From: Eggerthella timonensis
Lineage (GTDB): Bacteria > Actinomycetota > Coriobacteriia > Coriobacteriales > Eggerthellaceae
Direction: 5' to 3'
NCBI RefSeq assembly: GCF_900184265.1
Contig: NZ_FXXA01000002.1
Span: forward strand, 1,010,734 to 1,074,733
Length of the DNA: 64,000 nucleotides
Shown: positions 12,621 through 23,002 of the stretch, piece after piece
Layout of the letters: every line of letters starts with the position of its first letter
Position numbering within the stretch: position 1 is the stretch's first letter
The notes under the pieces: model-generated
The model's input: only the letters and a program-made list of their open reading frames with translations
What the model was told of the DNA's origin: nothing
The model's database searches: none
Position numbers and translations under genes: made by a program

Positions 12621-12635
12621 TACGAAGGAGGTGCC

Positions 12636-12920
12636 ATGGAGTCGGTTATGACCGTGCGGTTGAACGGCGACATGAAGGATCGGGCCACCGCGATCATGCG
12701 ACGCGAAGGCTACACTCCGTCCTCGGCTGTCAGGCGTTTGTTCGAATACACCGTGAAGCACGACGGCCTTCCGTTCGAGAAAAGCGAGAAGCCCGACAAG
12801 GACGAGCTGCGCCGTCGCATCGAAGCGTTCGATCGGGTGCATACGAAGCGCCCCCTGACGATAACCGACGAAGAGCTGCGAGACGCGCGTTTGAAGGATC
12901 GCTATGGACTTGATGCTTGA
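12636..12920 (+). CDS. RelB/DinJ-type ribbon-helix-helix antitoxin
   Basis: 94 residues. The N-terminus MTVRLNGDMKDRATAIMRRE is a RelB/DinJ-type beta strand plus helix, the DNA-binding ribbon-helix-helix. The charged C-terminal half (RRRIEAFDRVHTKRP...DEELRDARL) should wrap the toxin. The start follows a perfect AAGGAGGTG site. It overlaps the PIN toxin gene by 17 bp, giving translational coupling. It probably represses its own promoter at the palindrome 12603-12620. The odd point is that RelB/DinJ antitoxins classically neutralise RelE/YafQ toxins rather than PIN nucleases. Confidence 0.8.
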   Translation: MESVMTVRLNGDMKDRATAIMRREGYTPSSAVRRLFEYTVKHDGLPFEKSEKPDKDELRRRIEAFDRVHTKRPLTITDEELRDARLKDRYGLDA

Positions 12921-13347
12921 TACCAGCATCATCCTCGATCATATCGGCCGGCGCGAACCGTTCTACGAGCTGTCTCGCCGCGCGTGCCTGCTGGGCGTGG
13001 TGCAGGAAGCGTCCACCTACATCAGCGTAAACATGCTGACCGATATCTACTACCTGCTGCGCAAAGACTACGGCAGCGACGCCGCTCAGGAGATGATCGA
13101 GCAAAACCTGTCGTTCCTCCAGGTCGTAGGAGTATCGCCGGAGGATGCAAAGCGTGCTCTCGGCTCGCGCTGGGCGGATTTCGAGGATTGCCTCGTCGCC
13201 CAGTGCGCCGCGAAAATCAAGGCGGACTACATCGTCACGCGCAACGTCAAGGACTTCAAAGCCTCGCCCGTCGAAGCGATCACCCCCGAAGAGCTGTTCG
13301 CCCGCCTCCGCGTGCAAGGCTTCGACTACGAGGAAATCGACTGGTAG
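12904..13347 (+). CDS. PIN-domain (VapC-like) ribonuclease toxin
   Basis: 147 residues. The N-terminal MLDTSIILDHIGRRE supplies the first PIN acid, WADFEDCLVAQCA a central acidic cluster, and ADYIVTRNVKDF the C-terminal conserved Asp region. Together these form the metal-binding site of VapC-type endoribonucleases. All key acids appear present, so it is probably active. The gene begins inside the antitoxin gene, so production depends on antitoxin translation. The cellular RNA target cannot be read from the sequence. Confidence 0.82.
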   Translation: MDLMLDTSIILDHIGRREPFYELSRRACLLGVVQEASTYISVNMLTDIYYLLRKDYGSDAAQEMIEQNLSFLQVVGVSPEDAKRALGSRWADFEDCLVAQCAAKIKADYIVTRNVKDFKASPVEAITPEELFARLRVQGFDYEEIDW

Positions 13348-13497: not shown

Positions 13498-15264
13498 TTA
13501 TGCCTCGGCGAGGTCCTTGCCCAGCATGTAGGCGAAGGTGTTGCAGTTCATGCCCAGGTTGTGTCCGCAGATGGCGAAGTTGTAGCAGTTCGCGTAGCTG
13601 TCGCCCACCATGATGCCCAGGTTGTACAGGCCCTCGATCGGCTCGTTCTGCTCGTCGCATACTTGCATGTTCTCGTTGGTGCGCAGGCCGCCCGTCACGC
13701 AGAGGAAGTTGGCGGGGCTCATCTCGAGCTTGCAACCGTAGAACGGTCCTTCCTTGATGGGTGCGAGGAGCGTCGCGCTTTTGTGGAAGTCGTCATCGTA
13801 CTTGGCTTCGCACAGCTCGTTGTAACGATCGACCGACTTCTTCGCGTTCTCGGGGTCGAGCCCGTCGAGTTGCGCGATGACCTCCTCGATCGTGTCGCCC
13901 TTGACGAACGTCCCCTTCTCCACGTTGCTGTCCCATGAGGCGAGGTATTCCTCAGGCGTGGTCGCGTTCTTGCCCTCGTTCTCCACGATGGTGGTGCCGA
14001 ACGTTTCCCACGTGTCGAACCAGTTCGCGTAGGCGGTATCCCAGATGCCGTAGCGCGTCATATCGGGCTGCATCATCATGGCGTAGGTGCCGTAGGAGAA
14101 GATGACGTCTTCGTTCGAATAGCGCTCGCCCTTCTTGTTGAGCAGCAATCCCGAGAAATCGGCGATGGATTGACGGTAGGGCATGGGGCCCACGGCGTCG
14201 ATCATCGGCGCGTTCGGGAGCGTTTGCTGCCAGGCGGCGCCTACCCACAGCCCCATCTTCTGGCCGTCGCCCGGTCCGAGACCGCCGAACTGGAACATGG
14301 CGTCGTAATCGACCTCGTTGTACTGCAAAAGCGGTGCGACCCAGGAGCAGTACTTCGCCATCATGTCCTGGTTGGCGGAGAAGTCGCCCGTTGCCAGCAC
14401 GATGGCCTTCTTGCCAACGTACTTCACGAAGTTTCCGTCGGGGTCCTTGGCGACGATGGCGGAAACGCGCCCGGTGTTGTCGTCCTCGCGGATGAGGTAC
14501 TGGCCGATGGCGCTGTAGTGGATCTGGCCGCCCTGCTCCTTGATCTTTTCCTCGTACATGGCGATGACGAGGTTCTCGCCCGTGGCCGCGCCCGATTCCT
14601 TGCCGTCGGTTTGCTCCACCCAGTTATGGGAGCCGGGGTGCGCGGTGAACACGCCCTCGGTATCGGTGTAGCCGATCTCCATCGTGGTGGTGTAGCCCTT
14701 CGCCTCCATGAGGTCGATGAGCCAGTTCATGGTGGAGGCGCTGTTGTTGATCCACTTGTACCACTTCTTTTGATCGACGCGGTAGCCGTTGCGCGCCAGC
14801 TCCTGGCGGATGAAGCCGTCGATGGTGTCCTTCGTGTAGTCGGTGATGCCCAAGCGCTCGTGGAATTTCGTGCCGATGCCGTGGTTGGAGCCGCCGCGCG
14901 CAACCGGCTGGGAGCTGGCGGCGAACAGGATCACGTCGGCTCCCTCTTCCGTAGCGGACGCTGCGCAGGCCAAACCGGAGACGCCTGCGCCTACAACGAT
15001 GATGTCGGCTTCGTAAGTTTGCGTGATCTCGCTGTCGGCCACGGGCTCGGGCGCGATCTCGAACGACCAGGTTCCCTTGTTGATGGCTTCGGCGCTCAAC
15101 TGTCCTGCGTTGCCGGACCCCGCCGATGCGTTCGATGCGGCATCGCTCGAGCCGCCCCCGTTTGCCGCGCAGCCCGCCAATCCGAATGCGGCGGTGCCCG
15201 CACCTGCAAGCATCGCGCCCTTGAGGAAGCTGCGGCGATCGAACGCCGTTCCCTTGGTGATCAT
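13498..15264 (-). CDS. Tat-exported FAD-dependent reductase
   Basis: A 588-residue flavoprotein. RR at 10-11 (DRRSFLKG) and FGLAGC with Cys32 form a Tat lipoprotein signal. A Ser/Ala/Gly-rich linker follows, then the FAD motif VVGAGVSGLACAAS. The substrate-domain half contains RGGSNHGIGTKFHERLG and, late, GPGDGQKMG and CYNFAICGHNLGMN. The start follows AAGGAGGACCGT. The divergent LuxR gene at 15438 and the dyad at 15353-15382 suggest dedicated induction. It has no linked electron donor. Beyond the regulator lies the HsdS/HsdM-like gene, a neighbour no other module in the window has. Confidence 0.85.
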   Translation of the reverse strand: MITKGTAFDRRSFLKGAMLAGAGTAAFGLAGCAANGGGSSDAASNASAGSGNAGQLSAEAINKGTWSFEIAPEPVADSEITQTYEADIIVVGAGVSGLACAASATEEGADVILFAASSQPVARGGSNHGIGTKFHERLGITDYTKDTIDGFIRQELARNGYRVDQKKWYKWINNSASTMNWLIDLMEAKGYTTTMEIGYTDTEGVFTAHPGSHNWVEQTDGKESGAATGENLVIAMYEEKIKEQGGQIHYSAIGQYLIREDDNTGRVSAIVAKDPDGNFVKYVGKKAIVLATGDFSANQDMMAKYCSWVAPLLQYNEVDYDAMFQFGGLGPGDGQKMGLWVGAAWQQTLPNAPMIDAVGPMPYRQSIADFSGLLLNKKGERYSNEDVIFSYGTYAMMMQPDMTRYGIWDTAYANWFDTWETFGTTIVENEGKNATTPEEYLASWDSNVEKGTFVKGDTIEEVIAQLDGLDPENAKKSVDRYNELCEAKYDDDFHKSATLLAPIKEGPFYGCKLEMSPANFLCVTGGLRTNENMQVCDEQNEPIEGLYNLGIMVGDSYANCYNFAICGHNLGMNCNTFAYMLGKDLAEA

Positions 15265-15352
15265 ACGGTCCTCCTTACCCCGAGCATGCGGTATTGCATG
15301 CTTGTTCAACGGTTCGCAGTCTACGAACATCCCGTTGGCAAACCTCACATGG

Positions 15353-15382
15353 CATGGGTGAATTTCGCCGTTTTCACCCATG
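15353..15382. promoter_or_regulatory. Perfect 10-bp inverted repeat, candidate operator
   Basis: CATGGGTGAA (15353-15362) and TTCACCCATG (15373-15382) flank a 10-bp spacer, so the half-site centres are 20 bp apart, about two helical turns. It lies between the divergent flavoprotein and LuxR genes. This is the cleanest dyad found in any of the module promoters. Confidence 0.55.
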
Positions 15383-15437: not shown

Positions 15438-16988
15438 ATGTTGCGGAAGATCTCGCGCGCGTTCGACGCATACAGCGTCGGGTTCGCCATCTACCTGGTT
15501 TTGAGCTCCACGTCGGCATGGGGATTGCTGCATATCGCATCCATGACGTCGCTCTCGTTCAGCGGCATGAGCGGCGGCGAGACTGCGCGGTCGATCGGCT
15601 ACATCGGCATACTGCTCGCTTTCGGGTTGGGATGCCTCTATTTCCCCTCGCAATGCAAACGCGACACTACCTACCATTCCACGGTGTGCCTCGTGTTGGG
15701 ATACGCGGGCCTGTTCGCGACGGTATTCGTGCAGAACGCGGCACTGCAGAACCTTTCCGCGTTCCTCGTCGGGGCGGGGTCTTCGCTGTCCTTCGTGATG
15801 TGGCAGCGCTTGTTCGCCGAACAGGATGCGGACGATGCGGCGCGACGGATCATCGCCGGGTCCGCTTTGTCGGCGGTGTTCTACCTTATCGTGACGTGCG
15901 TCGCCTCGTATTGGCTGTACGCGATCGTAGTGTTTTGCGTCGTCGCACTCAATGCGCTGTTTTTGCGGCGGTGCCGCGGCGACGTGTTCCGGCGGGTGTC
16001 TTCGGGAATAGTCGTCGGGCAGAGCGGCGGCACCACGCTCACGAACATCGTGTCCAGCACATGGCGCTACATGCTGTGCATCGCCGCCATCGGATATGTC
16101 GGCGGGGTGTCGCGCATGTTCGCCCAGCAAAGCGGCGGCGATTCGGCTGTCTTGAACGTGACGCTCGCCTTGGGCATGCTGGTGGCGGCCGGCGGCCTGG
16201 CCTTGGTCTGGGACAAGGTGCGCGGCCGCCTTTCGTTTCCGGCGGTGTACACGGCGGTGTTTCTCGCGGTGATGACCGGTTTCCTGTTCCTGCCGTTCTT
16301 CGACGCAGGCTACCGCATGCTGTTCGCCGGCGTGGCGAACGCGGCGTTCTCGCTCGTGTCCATCTTCATGATGATCACCTGCATCAAGATCGCCCATTTG
16401 CGGCAAGTGGATCCGATCGCGGTGTTCGGGGTGTTCTCGAGCATCGTATACGGCGGGGTGCTGATCGGCCGCGCGGTGGGCGACGCTTTGGGGCAGACGT
16501 ACGACGTGTCGCAGATTCTCGTCATCGCGCTCATGTCGACCTACATGCTGTCGTTCGCGGGGGTCGTGGTCAACATGCGACGCAAGGGTAAGGTCGATCG
16601 GGCGTTCGATCCCATCGGCGGGACGGCGGATTCTGAGCCTGAAGGGAATGCGTCCTCCGATGAGGACGGTACGGCGGTGCGCGCATCCGACGACCGTCCC
16701 GCGCCCCGTCCCCTCGTGCGCAACGTCATCGTGGCGCAGGATATGGTTCCCGTGTACAGCCGGCTGCTGAAGAAGACTTACGGGCTGTCCAATCGCGAGA
16801 CCGACGTGCTCGAGCTGATCATGCGCGGCCGCGATGTGGCGCGCATGTCGGAGACGTTGTTCGTGTCGGAGAACACCGTGCGCTCGCACTGCAAGAACCT
16901 GTATCGGAAGCTCGATGTCCACAATCGTCAGCAGGTGTTCGACTTGGTTGAGGAGTTCAGGAAGAGAGAGGAATACGATGGCGATTGA
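15438..16988 (+). CDS. LuxR-family membrane regulator
   Basis: 516 residues from ATG 15438, behind GGGGAGGG. Roughly residues 10-390 form 10-12 membrane segments. An acidic linker (SEPEGNASSDEDG) precedes the LuxR helix-turn-helix (LSNRETDVLELIMRGRDVA, ENTVRSHCKNLYRKLDVHNR). It is divergent from the flavoprotein at 15264 and its 3' end overlaps the next gene (16978) by 11 bp, so the two are very likely co-translated. That overlap ties the HsdS/HsdM-like protein to the regulatory rather than the catalytic side of the module. Confidence 0.88.
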   Translation: MLRKISRAFDAYSVGFAIYLVLSSTSAWGLLHIASMTSLSFSGMSGGETARSIGYIGILLAFGLGCLYFPSQCKRDTTYHSTVCLVLGYAGLFATVFVQNAALQNLSAFLVGAGSSLSFVMWQRLFAEQDADDAARRIIAGSALSAVFYLIVTCVASYWLYAIVVFCVVALNALFLRRCRGDVFRRVSSGIVVGQSGGTTLTNIVSSTWRYMLCIAAIGYVGGVSRMFAQQSGGDSAVLNVTLALGMLVAAGGLALVWDKVRGRLSFPAVYTAVFLAVMTGFLFLPFFDAGYRMLFAGVANAAFSLVSIFMMITCIKIAHLRQVDPIAVFGVFSSIVYGGVLIGRAVGDALGQTYDVSQILVIALMSTYMLSFAGVVVNMRRKGKVDRAFDPIGGTADSEPEGNASSDEDGTAVRASDDRPAPRPLVRNVIVAQDMVPVYSRLLKKTYGLSNRETDVLELIMRGRDVARMSETLFVSENTVRSHCKNLYRKLDVHNRQQVFDLVEEFRKREEYDGD

Positions 16989-19272
16989 GATGAAACGCCT
17001 GGAAGGGGTCGCGCGCATATTCGACGACCGCTGCGCGCCCGTGAGGGGGGCGCAGCGCCTGCTGCGTAAGGGGCCGTACCGCCTCTACGTCGAGGCGGGC
17101 TTCGTCCCGTTCGACGACTATGCCTTCGAGGGGCGGTTCCTTCTGCTGGGGTCGGTGTGCAATGTGGAGGCCCCCACCGGATGCTTGCAGGTGACGGAAG
17201 CGCGTGGGAAGTTCTCGGCGACCGATCTGTACCACGTGATCGCGTGCGACGATGACGACGACACCGTCTATCTGCGGCACGTGCTATCGCGCATCCCGGC
17301 ATCCGCGCATGCGGACATGAGCGGGCAGACCGTGCGCCTCACGGAGAACAGCTTGCGGCATATTCCCGTGCCATGGCCTGAGGCGGACGTTCGCCGCGCG
17401 GTGGCGCGGTACTTGGACGAGTGCGAAGCGCGCTGCCGCGAGAGCGCGGCGCGCTGTCGGCGCCTGTTCGAGAAGGGAGTCGCAGTCTACCGCGAAGCCG
17501 CCGAGCGTTCGTCGCGGACGATGGAGCTGAGAAGCGCCTGCGCGATGCGCGAGGGCTCGCTCCTTCCGGCCGACAAGCGCAGCGCTCAGGGCGCGTTGCC
17601 GGCCGTATCGTCGCAGGGCGTTATGGCGCGTACGGACGAGGAAGGCGTGCGGGAGCCGTGCATCGTCGTGGGGCAGGCGGGGCAGTACCTTGTGGCGTGC
17701 ATGATGGCCGAAGGCGCGTACCCGTTGGCTGACACGGTGGCCTTGACGACGGACGCGTCTGCCCCGCTGACGGTGGATGCGCTCGTGTTCGCGCTCGCCT
17801 CGCTGGGCATCCGTCCGCGCTTGCGCGTGGCCGATCGTGCGGTTGAGGCGCTGGCGCTTCCGCTCGAGAGCCTTGGCTCGTTGGAGATTTCCCTGATCGG
17901 GGAGGACGAGCGGGATGAACGGTACGCCGAGATGCGGGCGATTCTCAGCGAGGTCGAAGAGGGCGAGCGCGCGGTGCGGGAGGCGCGCGCCGCCGCCGCA
18001 ACGCTGGTCGACGACTTGCTTGCTGGGCGCGAAGAGGCGATCAAGCGCTTTGCCGGGCCGACGACGTACGAGGCGCTGGAGGCGCTCGTGCAGGATGTCC
18101 GGTCGGATCTCGCCCATGCGGAAGGCGCGGCCGCGTCGTTGTTCGACGCGGCATGGGAGGTGCTGCCGGTACTGTTCGTGCGCCTGGTCGACGACGGTGA
18201 GGCCTGGGCGCGCGTCCTCGCAGCCGAGGACGCGCTGGCGCAGGTCGATGCGGAGCTCGAGCGTTTCGCTGCCGAGGACGAGGGGCTGTCGTTCCTGAGC
18301 GATCTCGCTTTGAGCGCGTCGTCGTTGGACGCCTCGTCGCAGCGGCGCATGATCGAGCGGGTGCGCGATCTGCGGATCGACCGCGAGGGCGGGACGCTGC
18401 TTCGTTGGCTCGCTCTGGGAAACGAGCCTGAGCCGGACGCGCCGTGCCCCGCTTCCCTCAGCGACCTCCTTGCGCGCATCGCGCTCGCGTTCAACCCTTC
18501 TGCCGCGCAAGCGTACGACCCGCACCTGGGTGCTGGCGATGCGCTGGCGGCGTTGCGACGCCTCGCCCCCGCAGCGCGCTGCGGGGGCCAGACCGCCCGC
18601 TTCTCCGATGCGCTCGCGGCGAAGCTGGCTGCGCGCTGTGAAGGATGGTCCTTCGGCGACGGCGCGCTGGCCGTGGGCTCCGCGTTGACCGAGGACGCGC
18701 ATGCGGGTGAGCTTGCCGACACGGTGGTGTCGGTGCTGCCTCCCAACCAGGGGGAATGGACCGACCATGCGCCCGACCCCGGCGATGCGCGCTGGAAGTT
18801 CGGCGTTCCTCCGCGGAACAAATCGAACCTCGCATGGGTGCAGCAGGCGTTTGCCCATCGGGCTCCGGACGGCATCGCCGTGCTGGCGGCGAGCAATGCC
18901 GTGCTGCACGAATCGAGGGGCTGCGAGCCTCAGGTGCGCGCCGCCATGATCGGATCGGGATGCGTCCGCGCGGTCGTGTCCCTGCCCGGGGGCCTGTTCG
19001 ATGACGGAAGGGCTCCGCTCAGCATCATCGTCCTGGGAGACGAGCGCGCGACGCCGTTCGAGACGCTGTTCGTCAATGCGCTGGAATGCGGCGTGCCGAG
19101 CGGATCGACGGCGGCACGCGAGCTTTCGATGGGGGCGCGCGACCGTGTCGTGTCGACCGTGGAGCGGTGGGTTGCGACCGGTTCGTGCGCGCACGTTCCC
19201 GGGTTCGCTCGCAGCGTGCCGATGGGCGAGGTTGCCGCCTTGGGCGATCTGACTCCCTGGTCGTACGTGTGA
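16978..19272 (+). CDS. Fused HsdS-like (two recognition domains) and degenerate HsdM-like methyltransferase
   Basis: 764 residues. Residues ~5-140 resemble a type I restriction specificity domain (VPFDDYAFEGRFLLLG, TENSLRHIPVPWPEADVRRA), followed by a helical spacer. Residues ~190-310 look like a second one (GALPAVSSQGVM, EEGVREPCIVVGQAGQYLVA). A long alpha-helical stretch (310-480) follows. Residues ~490-700 follow the HsdM fold: DPHLGAGDAL at 514-523 stands for motif I (DPxxGxG); then SVLPPNQGEW at 585-594, where NPPF/Y is expected; then SNLAWVQQAFAHRAPDGIAV and SLPGGLFDDGRAP. The motif IV Asn is replaced by Leu, and Asn instead of an aromatic residue follows the prolines, so adenine methylation is doubtful. 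It overlaps the LuxR gene by 11 bp. No HsdR nuclease is nearby. It may be a sequence-specific DNA-binding protein; this is inference. Confidence 0.7.
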   Translation: MAIEMKRLEGVARIFDDRCAPVRGAQRLLRKGPYRLYVEAGFVPFDDYAFEGRFLLLGSVCNVEAPTGCLQVTEARGKFSATDLYHVIACDDDDDTVYLRHVLSRIPASAHADMSGQTVRLTENSLRHIPVPWPEADVRRAVARYLDECEARCRESAARCRRLFEKGVAVYREAAERSSRTMELRSACAMREGSLLPADKRSAQGALPAVSSQGVMARTDEEGVREPCIVVGQAGQYLVACMMAEGAYPLADTVALTTDASAPLTVDALVFALASLGIRPRLRVADRAVEALALPLESLGSLEISLIGEDERDERYAEMRAILSEVEEGERAVREARAAAATLVDDLLAGREEAIKRFAGPTTYEALEALVQDVRSDLAHAEGAAASLFDAAWEVLPVLFVRLVDDGEAWARVLAAEDALAQVDAELERFAAEDEGLSFLSDLALSASSLDASSQRRMIERVRDLRIDREGGTLLRWLALGNEPEPDAPCPASLSDLLARIALAFNPSAAQAYDPHLGAGDALAALRRLAPAARCGGQTARFSDALAAKLAARCEGWSFGDGALAVGSALTEDAHAGELADTVVSVLPPNQGEWTDHAPDPGDARWKFGVPPRNKSNLAWVQQAFAHRAPDGIAVLAASNAVLHESRGCEPQVRAAMIGSGCVRAVVSLPGGLFDDGRAPLSIIVLGDERATPFETLFVNALECGVPSGSTAARELSMGARDRVVSTVERWVATGSCAHVPGFARSVPMGEVAALGDLTPWSYV

Positions 19273-19366: not shown

Positions 19367-21226
19367 CTACTTCGCGGAAGCCGTCACGGTATTGACGCGC
19401 TCGGCCTCGGGCATCATGGCGCTGACGATCTCGAGATCGGCGATCTCCTTCTCGGCGTCTCCTCCTGCGGCGTTGATGCCGGCGATGCGACCGAACGTCA
19501 GGCAGCGGCCGTGGTTCGTGCCGGGGCAGATGGTGGGGTAATCGTTCGAGAAGTACTCGCCGCCCGCGGCGCCGCACACGTACAGGCCCTCGATGGGGTT
19601 GTTCTCCTCGTCGAGGATGTGGCACGCCGTGTCCTGGCGCAGGCCGCCCGAGGCGGCAAGCAGCGTGGAGACCAGCTGACCGGCGAAGTACGGCGGCGTG
19701 TCGATAGGCCACAGGATCTCAGGACGCTTGCCGAAGTCATCGTCGTTGCCTTTGGCGGCCAGCTCGTTGTAGCGTGCGACGGTAGCCTTCAGCCCTTCGG
19801 CGTCGATGCCCGCCTTCTCGGCCAGTTCGTCCAGCGTGTCGGCCTGGAACAGCAGCCCCTGGTCGATCTTCGCCTGACGCAGTTTCAGCTCCACGTCCAT
19901 GTCGAACGGCACGCCGAAGCGACGGTACTGCTGGTCAGACGAGATGCCGCCCGAGATGCCGTCGTTGCACGACTGAGCGAACGATTCAAGCGAGTTCGCA
20001 TCGTAGATGGTGAACGCCTTGCCTTCAGGCTGGTACGATTTCACGCACGATTTCGACTGCGTGTTCACGTCCTCGTTCATGAAACGCTGCCCGTTCTTGT
20101 TCACGTGCAGGAAGTTATAGCTTTGGGCACCGGATTCCAGGTGGATGGTAGCGCAGTGCGGCTCGGAAGGCTGCATGGCGCCGCCGATCCACATGGCCTG
20201 CTTGTGCAGGTCGCCGGTGGAGATGCCGAAAGGGATGTACAGGCGGCTGTCGGCGTGCCAGGTGAAGGGCTGGTAACGCGTGCGCATCTCGTCGTCATCC
20301 AGGTAGTCGCCCGTGGCCACGATCACGGACTTCGCGTTGATTTGCTTGTACGAACCCTCCGCGCCCACAATGGCACCCGTAACGGGTCCGTTTCCGTCGC
20401 GCAGCAAGCGAGCGCACGGCGTTTCGTAGCGGTACTCCACGCCCAGCTTCTCTCCCTGTTCGATAACCGCGGGGATGAGCACGGCCATCCCAAGGCCCTT
20501 GGACACGCCGTCGAGGTACACGAAGTCGGTGGTGTCATCGTAGAAGAAGTGCGTGATGGGCTCCTCGGTGTAGTCGGGGCCCTTGTAGTAGCCGGCCCAC
20601 AGCGTGGGCTGCAAGCCCGACTCGGCCACGAGGTCCACGAGCCAGTCCATGCACGCGCCTGACTTCTTTGCGAATTGCCATAGCAGCGGCTCTTTCACGC
20701 GACCCGTGGCCCATTCGGTCAGCCGGCGCACGATGTGCGCGTAGTCGGCCTCCTCGAACCAGCCTTCTTCGACATACTGCTTCACGATCTTCGAGCCGTA
20801 TGCGGTGATGTGTCCGCCGCGGCCGGAATACGTGTTGCACTTCTCGATGCAAAGCGTTTTCGCGCCTTCCTGCGCAGCGGCGACCGAGGCGATGGCGCCT
20901 GCGAATCCGCAGCCCACCACGAGCACGTCCACATCCTCGGTACCGGTGATCTGATCGGCGGGAATGTCGGCCGGGGGCGTCATGAACGACCACTCGACGG
21001 CAGCGTTCGCGCCCAACGGGTTGTTGGCGAGGCTCGCGGAATCGGCCGCGCCGCCAGCCGACGCCGTGCCCTCGGCCCCCTTGCTCTCGGCGGCTTGGGT
21101 GCCGCTGGGCGCGCAACCGGCGAGGCCGGCTCCTGCGGCACCCAAGCCGGCCAGGCCCGCTCCGATGAGGAACTGGCGGCGAGAAACTCCCGTTGAGGCG
21201 TGTGCGGCGCATTCGTTTTTCGACAT
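19367..21226 (-). CDS. Tat-exported FAD-dependent reductase
   Basis: A 619-residue flavoprotein with a longer N-terminus: RR at 16-17 (SRRQFLIGAG) and GAGLAGC with Cys38. The FAD motif is VVGCGFAGAIASVAA. Later segments include YSGRGGHITAYGSK, ATGDYLDDDEM and VCGAAGGEYFSNDYPTICPG. The start follows GAGGGAG. The acidic Ala/Ser-rich linker after Cys38 probably spaces the enzyme from its lipid anchor. The divergent LuxR gene at 21452 is the likely regulator. No electron-transfer partner is adjacent. Substrate unknown. Confidence 0.85.
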   Translation of the reverse strand: MSKNECAAHASTGVSRRQFLIGAGLAGLGAAGAGLAGCAPSGTQAAESKGAEGTASAGGAADSASLANNPLGANAAVEWSFMTPPADIPADQITGTEDVDVLVVGCGFAGAIASVAAAQEGAKTLCIEKCNTYSGRGGHITAYGSKIVKQYVEEGWFEEADYAHIVRRLTEWATGRVKEPLLWQFAKKSGACMDWLVDLVAESGLQPTLWAGYYKGPDYTEEPITHFFYDDTTDFVYLDGVSKGLGMAVLIPAVIEQGEKLGVEYRYETPCARLLRDGNGPVTGAIVGAEGSYKQINAKSVIVATGDYLDDDEMRTRYQPFTWHADSRLYIPFGISTGDLHKQAMWIGGAMQPSEPHCATIHLESGAQSYNFLHVNKNGQRFMNEDVNTQSKSCVKSYQPEGKAFTIYDANSLESFAQSCNDGISGGISSDQQYRRFGVPFDMDVELKLRQAKIDQGLLFQADTLDELAEKAGIDAEGLKATVARYNELAAKGNDDDFGKRPEILWPIDTPPYFAGQLVSTLLAASGGLRQDTACHILDEENNPIEGLYVCGAAGGEYFSNDYPTICPGTNHGRCLTFGRIAGINAAGGDAEKEIADLEIVSAMMPEAERVNTVTASAK

Positions 21227-21359
21227 GATTGAACTCCCTCTCTCCCTGATGCTCGCTGATCGACTACGGTGGACGCGGTCGATCTCCTGGCGCAGACCAT
21301 ACCGAAGCTGCGGCGCGCCCGGCTATCCCCTTTGCGCGGTAAATCGCCAGAAATCGAAT

Positions 21360-21378
21360 CTACCCCCGGAAGGGGTAG
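21360..21378. promoter_or_regulatory. Inverted repeat CTACCCC / GGGGTAG
   Basis: CTACCCC (21360-21366) and GGGGTAG (21372-21378) form a 7-bp dyad with a 5-bp spacer in the divergent flavoprotein/LuxR gap 21227-21451. It is a candidate operator or a small hairpin. Confidence 0.4.
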
Positions 21379-21451
21379 GCGAACGATGTTGGCGCGGGCG
21401 TGCGCTGTGCTACCATGCAATCCACGGAAACAAGCAGCTCGGGGAGGGGCG

Positions 21452-23002
21452 ATGGAGACCGTGCCAAACGAACAGGAAAGCCGCAGCCGGGATGTTCCGC
21501 CCAGCTGCGGCTTGACGGGATGGCAGGAGCGTCACGGCATGCTGCGCTCGTTTCGCCGCGAGATGCGTGTGCATCCACGGTTGTCGGTGGGTTTCGGCCT
21601 GTTTTGGACGTGGGTGTGGCTGGTGTTCCAGACGACGTTCTTCAATCCCCCGTTCCTTGCGGCGCTCGACTTCCCGCTGCCCGGATGGATCGTGCCGTTG
21701 TCGGCGTACGCCTGCACGTTCCTGGTGTTGGGACTGGCTTTCAAATGGAAGCGTGCCGTGCCGCAGGGGAGGTGGTACTGCATCGCCGTGCCTGCTTCCA
21801 TGTCGGCGGGTGTGGCCACATGCGGCGTGCTCTCGTTCTCCCCGCTCACCGTGGCGCCGGTGAACGAAGCGGTCGTGTGCCTGGGAGGCTTGCTCATGGG
21901 GGCTGGCACGGCATGCTTGCACGTTGAATGGGGTCGTGCGTTCGGCGATTTGGGCCCGCGCATCACCATCTTGCACGGCGTGGTGGGAACGCTCGTCGCC
22001 GCCCTGATCACGGTTGTCATCACGCTGTTGCCGGCGTATGCGGTATGGGTCGTCGCGCTTCTCGTGCCCTCCGCCAGCATGATGCTGCTCGCGAAGGACG
22101 CTCCCGCAACGCCGCAGCTGCTTTCGTACGGCTTGGAAGCGCAGCTGCGCGTTCCGCGCAGGTTCCTCGTCACGTCGTTCATCCAGGGGGTTTCGTTCGG
22201 CATCGTGCAAGCCGTGTTGCTGCTCGGTGGCGGCGAAGAGCCCGTGGTCGCGCTCTCGGCAGTCAGCTTCGCCCTGTCCGCCTTGGCTTTGCTCACCTGT
22301 GCGCTCTTCTTCCGAATGGATTTCAACCAGCTGATCTACCAGGTGGGGTTCCTCATCATGTCGGTCGGATTTCTCGTGCTGGCCGTGATCGGCCCTGATG
22401 CGCTCGGCGGTCTGCTCATCCACGCGATGGGCTACCGTTTCGTCGACATCATGTTGTGGGCGCTCTGTGCGTTCCTCATCAGTCAACGCGGTCTGCCGGC
22501 CAACTGGGTGTTCGCCATCACGACGTGCGTTCTGCTGCTCGGGCAGATCGCCGGCGCTTTCGTGGGCAGCACCATGGTGGCGGCCATGCCCATCACGGTG
22601 CATACGGCTCGCGACCTGGCTACCGTCATGGTGTTCGTCCTGCTGGCAAGTTCGCTCGTGATGAGCGACCGCAAGAACCTGCAAATGGGGTGGGGCATGG
22701 CGCGGCCCGGCGACATCGGCGCGGTGCCCGACAGTTTCGATCAGGCGTGCGATCTGGTATGCCGCCGCAGCGATTTGACCGCGCGCGAATGCGAAGTGCT
22801 CGCCATGCTGGCGCGCGGGGCCAGCCGCGCGGTCATCTGCGACGAGCTGACGTTGTCGAAGGAGACGGTGAAAACCCATGTGCGCAACATCTACCGCAAG
22901 ATGGGCATTCACTCGCAACAGGATCTGCTGGCGGCCGTCGTGGCCGAGCAGCGCGCGCTTGGCATGCAGGAGGAGGGCGAGCTCATCGAGGCCGCCTTGT
23001 GA
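21452..23002 (+). CDS. LuxR-family membrane regulator
   Basis: 516 residues from ATG 21452, set by GGGGAGGGGC. A soluble N-terminal tail of about 50 residues is followed by 10-12 membrane segments and the LuxR helix-turn-helix (LTARECEVLAMLARGASRA, KETVKTHVRNIYRKMGIHSQ). It closely resembles the regulator at 44481-: both contain a KMDFNxLIYQVGF-type segment (RMDFNQLIYQVGF here), which suggests duplication of whole modules. Its probable target is the divergent flavoprotein gene at 21226. Confidence 0.88.
   Translation: METVPNEQESRSRDVPPSCGLTGWQERHGMLRSFRREMRVHPRLSVGFGLFWTWVWLVFQTTFFNPPFLAALDFPLPGWIVPLSAYACTFLVLGLAFKWKRAVPQGRWYCIAVPASMSAGVATCGVLSFSPLTVAPVNEAVVCLGGLLMGAGTACLHVEWGRAFGDLGPRITILHGVVGTLVAALITVVITLLPAYAVWVVALLVPSASMMLLAKDAPATPQLLSYGLEAQLRVPRRFLVTSFIQGVSFGIVQAVLLLGGGEEPVVALSAVSFALSALALLTCALFFRMDFNQLIYQVGFLIMSVGFLVLAVIGPDALGGLLIHAMGYRFVDIMLWALCAFLISQRGLPANWVFAITTCVLLLGQIAGAFVGSTMVAAMPITVHTARDLATVMVFVLLASSLVMSDRKNLQMGWGMARPGDIGAVPDSFDQACDLVCRRSDLTARECEVLAMLARGASRAVICDELTLSKETVKTHVRNIYRKMGIHSQQDLLAAVVAEQRALGMQEEGELIEAAL

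Follow-up and report, generated by a model that had tools for sequence, protein, structure and literature searches.

What becomes of a type I DNA methyltransferase whose catalytic motif is broken and whose gene overlaps that of a membrane regulator? The question is raised by a gene at positions 16978 to 19272 of a 64,000-nucleotide stretch of Eggerthella timonensis (assembly GCF_900184265.1, contig NZ_FXXA01000002.1, positions 1,010,734 to 1,074,733), referred to here as the window. The original prediction, made from the letters of the window alone, described the gene product as an HsdS-HsdM-like fusion and proposed that it could be a DNA-binding co-regulator or an epigenetic switch. Its observation is confirmed here, and its interpretation is partly supported. 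In sequence and model we find the HsdS and HsdM folds, the loss of motif IV, the loss of the S-adenosylmethionine (SAM)-binding half in the short members of the family, purifying selection on the long type and a recurrent linkage to flavin reductase genes. We lean towards reading the protein as a domesticated, methylation-dead, one-chain type I complex, a DNA-binding co-regulator for the flavin reductase gene beside it.

HsdS and HsdM folds in a single chain

The gene and its parts are located as follows (TRD, target recognition domain).

16978 to 19272, plus strand: hsdS-hsdM-like fusion gene, an open frame of 764 amino acids with motif IV lost
16978 to 18030, plus strand: HsdS-like part, residues 1-351, with TRD1 (about 1-150), a helical link, TRD2 (about 182-310) and a second helical region
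18058 to 19269, plus strand: HsdM-like part, residues 361-764, with an HsdM-type N-terminal helical domain, from Pfam and structural alignment
18517 to 18543, plus strand: motif I remnant DPHLGAGDA, from residue 514, a pattern lost in the Enteroscipio orthologue and the six short members
18736 to 18759, plus strand: motif IV position, LPPNQGEW (residues 587-594) replacing NPPF/Y, from alignment

The two specificity-like domains originally proposed for the 764-residue frame are borne out by PADLOC specificity models, which match the protein at residues 3-151 (E 4.8e-6) and 182-275 (E 2.9e-8). The Pfam scan reported no Methylase_S domain in the protein; an ordinary Coriobacteriia HsdS, itself a Pfam Methylase_S protein, matches residues 1-172 (E 1.9e-16, in a small local database). 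The sole Pfam domain in the chain is N6_Mtase (PF02384), at residues 492-754 (E 1.6e-19, 70.8 bits against a cut-off of 20.4), and no nuclease domain was called by Pfam. With TIGR00497, the NCBIfam equivalog for type I HsdM, the protein reaches 28.3 bits, below the cut-off of 242.75.

Structural alignment was run on Foldseek's matches of the AlphaFold2 (AF2) model of the fusion, which was built from 11 sequences and has a low mean predicted local distance difference test score (pLDDT) of 61, falling below 50 across most of TRD1. Residues 1-351 pair with the whole of HsdS 1ydx (Z 13.0, root-mean-square deviation (rmsd) 7.3, 292 residues), and the PacII HsdM is matched by residues 361-764 (Z 21.4, rmsd 9.0, 325 residues). 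As modelled, the protein is HsdS followed by HsdM in one chain. Pfam and the PacII alignment both place the C-terminal half within the N6-adenine methyltransferase fold. The HsdM-like domain had been drawn at residues 490-700; it is present, extends to the C-terminus (361-764) and, since residues 361-764 align with the PacII HsdM, takes in the preceding helical stretch, which is mainly the HsdM N-terminal domain. The methyltransferase core (residues 566-706) is also matched by the PHROG family phrog_2713, to which no function is assigned (E 7.5e-15).

A family of fused proteins without motif IV

Profile and contig searches yielded 18 fused members, a few of them incomplete where a contig ends, and one split HsdM plus HsdS pair. 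A contig scan with the single fusion protein as query found no relative, and a scan with the alignment gave 31 loci, ten of which (L121-L130) are family members. L131 and two of nine Streptomyces loci were set aside for retaining NPPF, the other seven Streptomyces loci and L142-L151 for weak similarity, without a motif check, and L135, which has DFPF and no NPPF, was set aside as well.

Long members occur in the window genome, G052, G053 (E. lenta DSM 2243), Gordonibacter sp. An230, Enteroscipio rubneri and G132 and, among uncultured Coriobacteriales, in G315 (two copies), G359 and G374. Six short members of 456-512 amino acids come from G052, G054, Enteroscipio, Rubneribacter, Gordonibacter and G084. 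The two remaining fused members lie in metagenome-assembled genomes (MAGs; L128 and L130), which from their isolate names we take to be of termite-gut origin. At L128:19-2727 a fusion fragment is followed by a LuxR gene; the Bifidobacteriaceae label of this MAG, or its binning, may be wrong.

Motif I (DPHLGAGD) and the altered motif IV (LPPN) are both present in the window protein as originally described. Ordinary Coriobacteriia HsdMs read NPPFN..DW at motif IV. Of 17 comparison proteins, 15 have NPPF; only L135 and the split G085 protein depart from it. None of the 18 fused members carries [NDS]PP[FYW]; at the aligned position they read LPPNQG, PPPNQG, LPDNEG and similar. A wider survey of the collected loci agrees: NPP[FY] is present in 35 of 53 distinct proteins, none of them a family member. 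Of the 18 proteins that lack it, 15 belong to the family; the others are the split G085 protein and two fragments (one from G135 reading IPPF, the other from G403). The motif I pattern is kept by four of the 18 fused members, including the window protein.

The short members go further. Each has a single TRD, the methyltransferase domain is reduced to its second half, and the motif I region is missing from all six in the alignment, which means that the SAM-binding half is gone. In the model of the Rubneribacter short member (pLDDT 76), the HsdM match begins at residue 223 (Z 25.4, rmsd 2.3), and residues 26-205 match HsdS (Z 12.6, rmsd 3.7).

Motif IV has a known role in N6-adenine methylation. 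Because it is lost, methylation of DNA by the fusion family appears very unlikely, and an active methyltransferase or epigenetic switch was rejected as an explanation, motif IV being gone in 18 of 18 fused members.

The split version in G085 consists of a 442-amino-acid HsdM-like protein (motif IV MPPLNQG) and a 356-amino-acid HsdS-like protein in overlapping frames. At this locus (L046:6125-12291) the dead HsdM and the HsdS are divergent from a reductase gene followed by a LuxR gene, a single case among the inspected loci. The pair is possibly an ancestral-like state; no further split pair was found among the 53 distinct proteins of the collected loci (among the matches listed with a locus).

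Restriction partners in the genome

Absence of a nuclease gene nearby had been part of the original prediction, and for HSDR_N it extends to the whole genome: there are no matches in this genome, against matches in 9 of 14 control genomes, other nuclease families not having been searched. Methylase_S likewise has no match in the genome. The single other N6_Mtase match (G000:C2:3714192-3714767, L153) lies inside a 2137-amino-acid open frame that is perhaps a mobile-element helicase/methylase. With neither HSDR_N nor Methylase_S in the genome, a part in a type I system was rejected. Because the protein has no HsdR partner, has lost motif IV and scores below the TIGR00497 cut-off, we regard it not as a member of a restriction system but as a derived relative that may act as a regulator.

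Selection on the fusion gene

Orthologues of the fusion are 81-85% identical in three genomes and about 50-55% identical in a fourth. Against four long-type orthologues, the ratio of nonsynonymous to synonymous substitution rates (dN/dS) is 0.17-0.30, and by this measure the gene is maintained and under purifying selection in the long type. A pseudogene was rejected on the basis of these ratios and the open frames, for the long type only. TRD1, with a dN/dS of 0.08-0.19, has the lowest dN in all four comparisons and the lowest ratio in three of them. The TRDs of restriction-modification systems are usually hypervariable; set against this, the constraint on TRD1 implies one fixed DNA target, and the first TRD looks fixed and not switching.

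Linkage to flavin reductase and LuxR genes

The genes adjoining the fusion in the window are the following.

13498 to 15264, minus strand: flavin reductase gene (FAD_binding_2, from Pfam), divergent from luxR
15438 to 16988, plus strand: membrane LuxR-type regulator of 516 amino acids, with a C-terminal GerE helix-turn-helix (HTH; E 8.9e-16) and 11 transmembrane (TM) segments by a rough hydropathy count
16978 to 16988, plus strand: 11 bp over which luxR runs into the start of the fusion gene, an overlap of identical length in 5/5 long-type loci

A gene for a FAD_binding_2-type reductase, called by blastp with four reductase queries (one of them the G085 gene itself), lies within 2 kb in 16 of the 19 family loci, that is, 18 fused members and the split pair. 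Among 13 control loci with ordinary HsdMs it does so in none, and within 4 kb in one; five of the 13 belong to other families, for which no reductase density was taken, and for five the sequence on one side is shorter than 2 kb. Twelve of these control loci were checked for NPPF, the thirteenth (L049, G135) being a 245-residue fragment reading IPPF. Pfam on the linked reductases covered the window and G085 genes. A reductase is expected this close at a base rate of 0.11-0.18. The family loci are not independent and fall into five groups by arrangement; taking 0.18 as the base rate, the probability for these is about 2e-4.

In the first arrangement (five loci), reductase and LuxR are divergent and the fusion gene lies behind LuxR, and in the second (five loci) reductase, LuxR and fusion are all co-directional. 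The third has the reductase and then the fusion directly (G084, G132 and the MAG L130, with LuxR on the far side in L130), the fourth has one apparent other gene between the two (G315a, G374), and in the fifth the split M and S genes are divergent from reductase plus LuxR (G085). A LuxR gene is found in the cluster at 13 of the 19 loci, and at ten it stands between the reductase and the fusion gene, co-oriented with the latter. The available sequence of the other loci showed no LuxR; among them are G315a, which has a reductase, and G084, G132 and G374, for which that sequence is short (in G084 it reaches 369 bp beyond the reductase on the upstream side). Judged by these counts, the reductase accompanies the family most constantly, with LuxR usually as a third member. 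Among reductases similar to that of the window, the linked gene ranks first in G374, G315 and G084 and second or third in G089, G052, G061 and G132.

The 11-bp overlap noted in the original prediction thus recurs, as does the layout of LuxR followed by the fusion in other Coriobacteriia. What the original prediction did not notice is that the reductase is the more constant neighbour, present also where no LuxR is seen, and LuxR the more variable one.

The window reductase carries a twin-arginine motif (RRSFLKG) and a lipobox-like LAGCA, both read directly from the sequence; Pfam TAT_signal matches only below its cut-off. With such an export-type signal, a DNA-binding fold is unlikely to be a subunit of the reductase.

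Further genes surround the cluster. Positions 12624-13347 of the window encode a RelB-type antitoxin (PF04221, E 2.6e-7) and then a PIN_3-domain protein (E 1.4e-19), likely a toxin-antitoxin pair, placed between the reductase and another LuxR gene; the matching open reading frames (ORFs) in G052 (L031) are only about 110 bp apart. A second divergent reductase/LuxR pair lies directly downstream of the fusion (19367-23002). It occurs also in Enteroscipio (L034), whereas the corresponding regions of G052, G053 and Gordonibacter An230 (L031, L032, L033) showed no such pair. The frameshifted second copy in G315 (G315b, L085:929-4622) adjoins a gene whose product is a nucleoid-associated protein of 37 kD (PF04245).

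Candidate regulatory sites

Two elements stand in the 173-bp intergenic region that separates the reductase and luxR genes in the window.

15284 to 15301, strand not assigned: GCATGC-N6-GCATGC by the reductase start, with constant arms and a variable spacer across 5/5 long-type loci, a candidate operator
15357 to 15378, strand not assigned: GGTGAA-N10-TTCACC dyad, kept in 5/5 long-type loci

LuxR boxes are similar in size to the TTCACC dyads, and because of this resemblance GGTGAA-N10-TTCACC is probably the LuxR operator. The GCATGC pair is a possible second regulatory site; an RNA hairpin formed by it was rejected, folding no better than shuffles (z -0.60). In the reductase promoters of five short-type loci with LuxR between, the element TCACC-N5-GGTGTGA is kept; it was not seen at the L130 locus. 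At the G084 locus (L039, upstream of 370), where no LuxR was seen, a TTCGC-N9-GCGAA found by eye replaces the dyad of the TTCAC-N9-GTGAA type.

A putative co-regulator and its alternatives

The DNA-binding co-regulator put forward in the original prediction fits the gene context; DNA binding and regulation, together with the target, the direction of regulation, contact with the LuxR and co-translation, are what we infer. In this mechanism, the TRDs would still recognise one fixed DNA sequence, and the HsdM-like part would be a scaffold or clamp on DNA and not an enzyme. The membrane LuxR, probably co-translated with the fusion, would sense a substrate at the membrane. The fusion, still shaped like an M.S complex, would bind a site near the reductase promoter and thereby help or limit activation. 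For the short members, dimerisation is plausible, as engineered half-S fusions dimerise and work (PMC6158711).

A DNA-binding protein of the specificity type could instead have a job unrelated to the reductase, for instance as a decoy, an anti-phage sensor or in chromosome structure, its position reflecting gene abundance. We consider this unlikely, though it has real points in its favour. The genome holds 100 FAD_binding_2 and 113 LuxR matches, and with reductase genes so dense (base rate about 0.15) part of the linkage comes cheaply; the distribution is patchy (at least 10 of 138 family genomes); and the linked reductases fall in several clades. The contrast of 16/19 with 0/13 controls, the rank of the linked reductase (first to third among window-like reductases in seven genomes) and the 11-bp luxR overlap in 5/5 long-type loci all speak for a connection with the reductase.

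Rather less probable still is control of the LuxR or the reductase by protein contact only, with the TRD fold reused as an adaptor without DNA binding. The luxR overlap would suit it, as would the slight acidity of the S part (TRD1 -4, TRD2 -7; several ordinary HsdS are likewise acidic). So would the search of seven short-type reductase promoters for a shared bipartite 4-N5-9-4 motif, which returned none, as did shuffles. Against contact alone stand the TRD kept in G084, G132 and G315a, where no LuxR was seen (on short contigs), and TRD1 as the most constrained segment.

We give very little credence to continued methylation, via an altered motif or with another M subunit. Four members keep the motif I pattern, and engineered M-S and M-half-S fusions are active (PMC6158711, available text); on the other side are the missing [NDS]PP[FYW] in 18/18, the short members without the motif I region and the confinement of the only other N6_Mtase match to the 2137-amino-acid frame. 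A decaying remnant of a type I system is barely credible: catalytic motifs are lost, the G315b copy is frameshifted and the helical link exceeds a dN/dS of 1 in two of four comparisons, but the long type has a dN/dS of 0.17-0.30 and a conserved gene order, and in four other genomes the frame of its long orthologue is open.

The co-regulator reading thus has to bear several of the points just named, namely the density of reductase genes, the patchy distribution, the several clades, the acidity and the empty motif search, and others weigh against it as well. The fusion evolves faster than its neighbours (dN/dS 0.06-0.16 for LuxR, 0.03-0.10 for the reductase), and the elevated helical link spans 35 codons (150-185) with few synonymous changes. 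Three of 19 loci have no reductase; the contigs of two end within 0.8 kb upstream, and G315b, with 7.6 kb of upstream sequence, is a real negative. The absence of Methylase_S from the genome is weak evidence, since that model misses the fusion protein too. GCATGC-N6-GCATGC has five sites in this genome, and neither the four others nor two from G052/G053 have a reductase of the queried type within about 2.5 kb; one of these six lies at a LuxR-type ORF. A genome-wide reductase signal was accordingly rejected for this element and, with this search and the shared-motif search both empty, the promoter elements stay a lead. The closest paralogues of the window LuxR differ from the LuxRs beside the short members; together with the several reductase clades, this indicates that the cassette has not come down unaltered as a single unit, and weakens a single-origin story.

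More tentatively, and as a possibility that we would not yet call probable, the family could be a new class of bacterial regulator, in which dead type I S-M proteins serve as sequence-addressed partners of membrane LuxRs (or alone, perhaps in G084 and G132) and control flavin reductases of gut Coriobacteriia. The target of fusions with a whole S would be a bipartite site, and that of half-S members, acting as dimers, a palindromic one; for the window type, GCATGC-N6-GCATGC at the reductase start would be the candidate site. If true, the sequence-reading apparatus of restriction enzymes can be converted into a transcription regulator by killing catalysis, and there is a second regulatory layer on the reductase clusters with which Eggerthella and its relatives act on compounds from diet and drugs. 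An orthologue is present in the E. lenta type strain (DSM 2243, 474,348-476,639), for which a genetic toolkit has been published (PMC9734109), and this makes the regulator idea directly testable.

Comparison with known systems

The layout had originally been offered as one without a description, and we found no publication describing it in the open-licence literature, including the available portions of PMC13174815 and PMC12839542. The nearest regulatory parallel is provided by E. lenta, as reported in the available parts of Dong et al. 2022 (PMC9734109). There, the membrane-spanning LuxRs DadR, HcdR and CadR activate nearby reductase genes in response to substrates, and DSM 2243 has 83 transmembrane LuxRs, 50 of them near flavin-dependent enzymes. 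The clusters resemble the window in that the same LuxR class adjoins a reductase gene. The window LuxR fits the 10-12-TM class described there by its N-terminal TM domain and C-terminal GerE HTH, and the nearby flavin- or Mo-dependent enzyme gene of such clusters has its counterpart in the FAD_binding_2 gene at 13498-15264. The second regulator gene at dadh, DadS, is of the LysR type, and the words methyltransferase and methylase are absent from the main text of that paper as available.

The engineered fusions of PMC6158711 (available text) share the one-chain combination of M with a whole or half S, and provide a model for the short members; they are M first, catalytically active and man-made, whereas the window protein is S first. 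PMC3510504 came up in the literature search as another entry on engineered fusions of this kind. For BcgI-type and type IIG single-chain restriction-modification enzymes, the comparison rests on the division of the window chain by the model into S (1-351) and M (361-764), and on HSDR_N as the partner nuclease searched for.

With the type I M.S methyltransferases (EcoKI, EcoR124I, PacII M1M2S), the protein has in common the HsdS and HsdM folds and two TRDs with helical spacers. It differs from them in having S before M in one chain, a lost motif IV and a conserved TRD1, in a genome without HSDR_N and with recurrent metabolic neighbours. Dead enzymes put to new use are known elsewhere: TldR proteins are nuclease-dead TnpB repressors, and DNMT3L and METTL14 are pseudo-methyltransferases. 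The likeness lies in the reuse of dead mobile-element or modification enzymes as regulators or cofactors, with folds or guidance mechanisms unrelated to those of the fusion.

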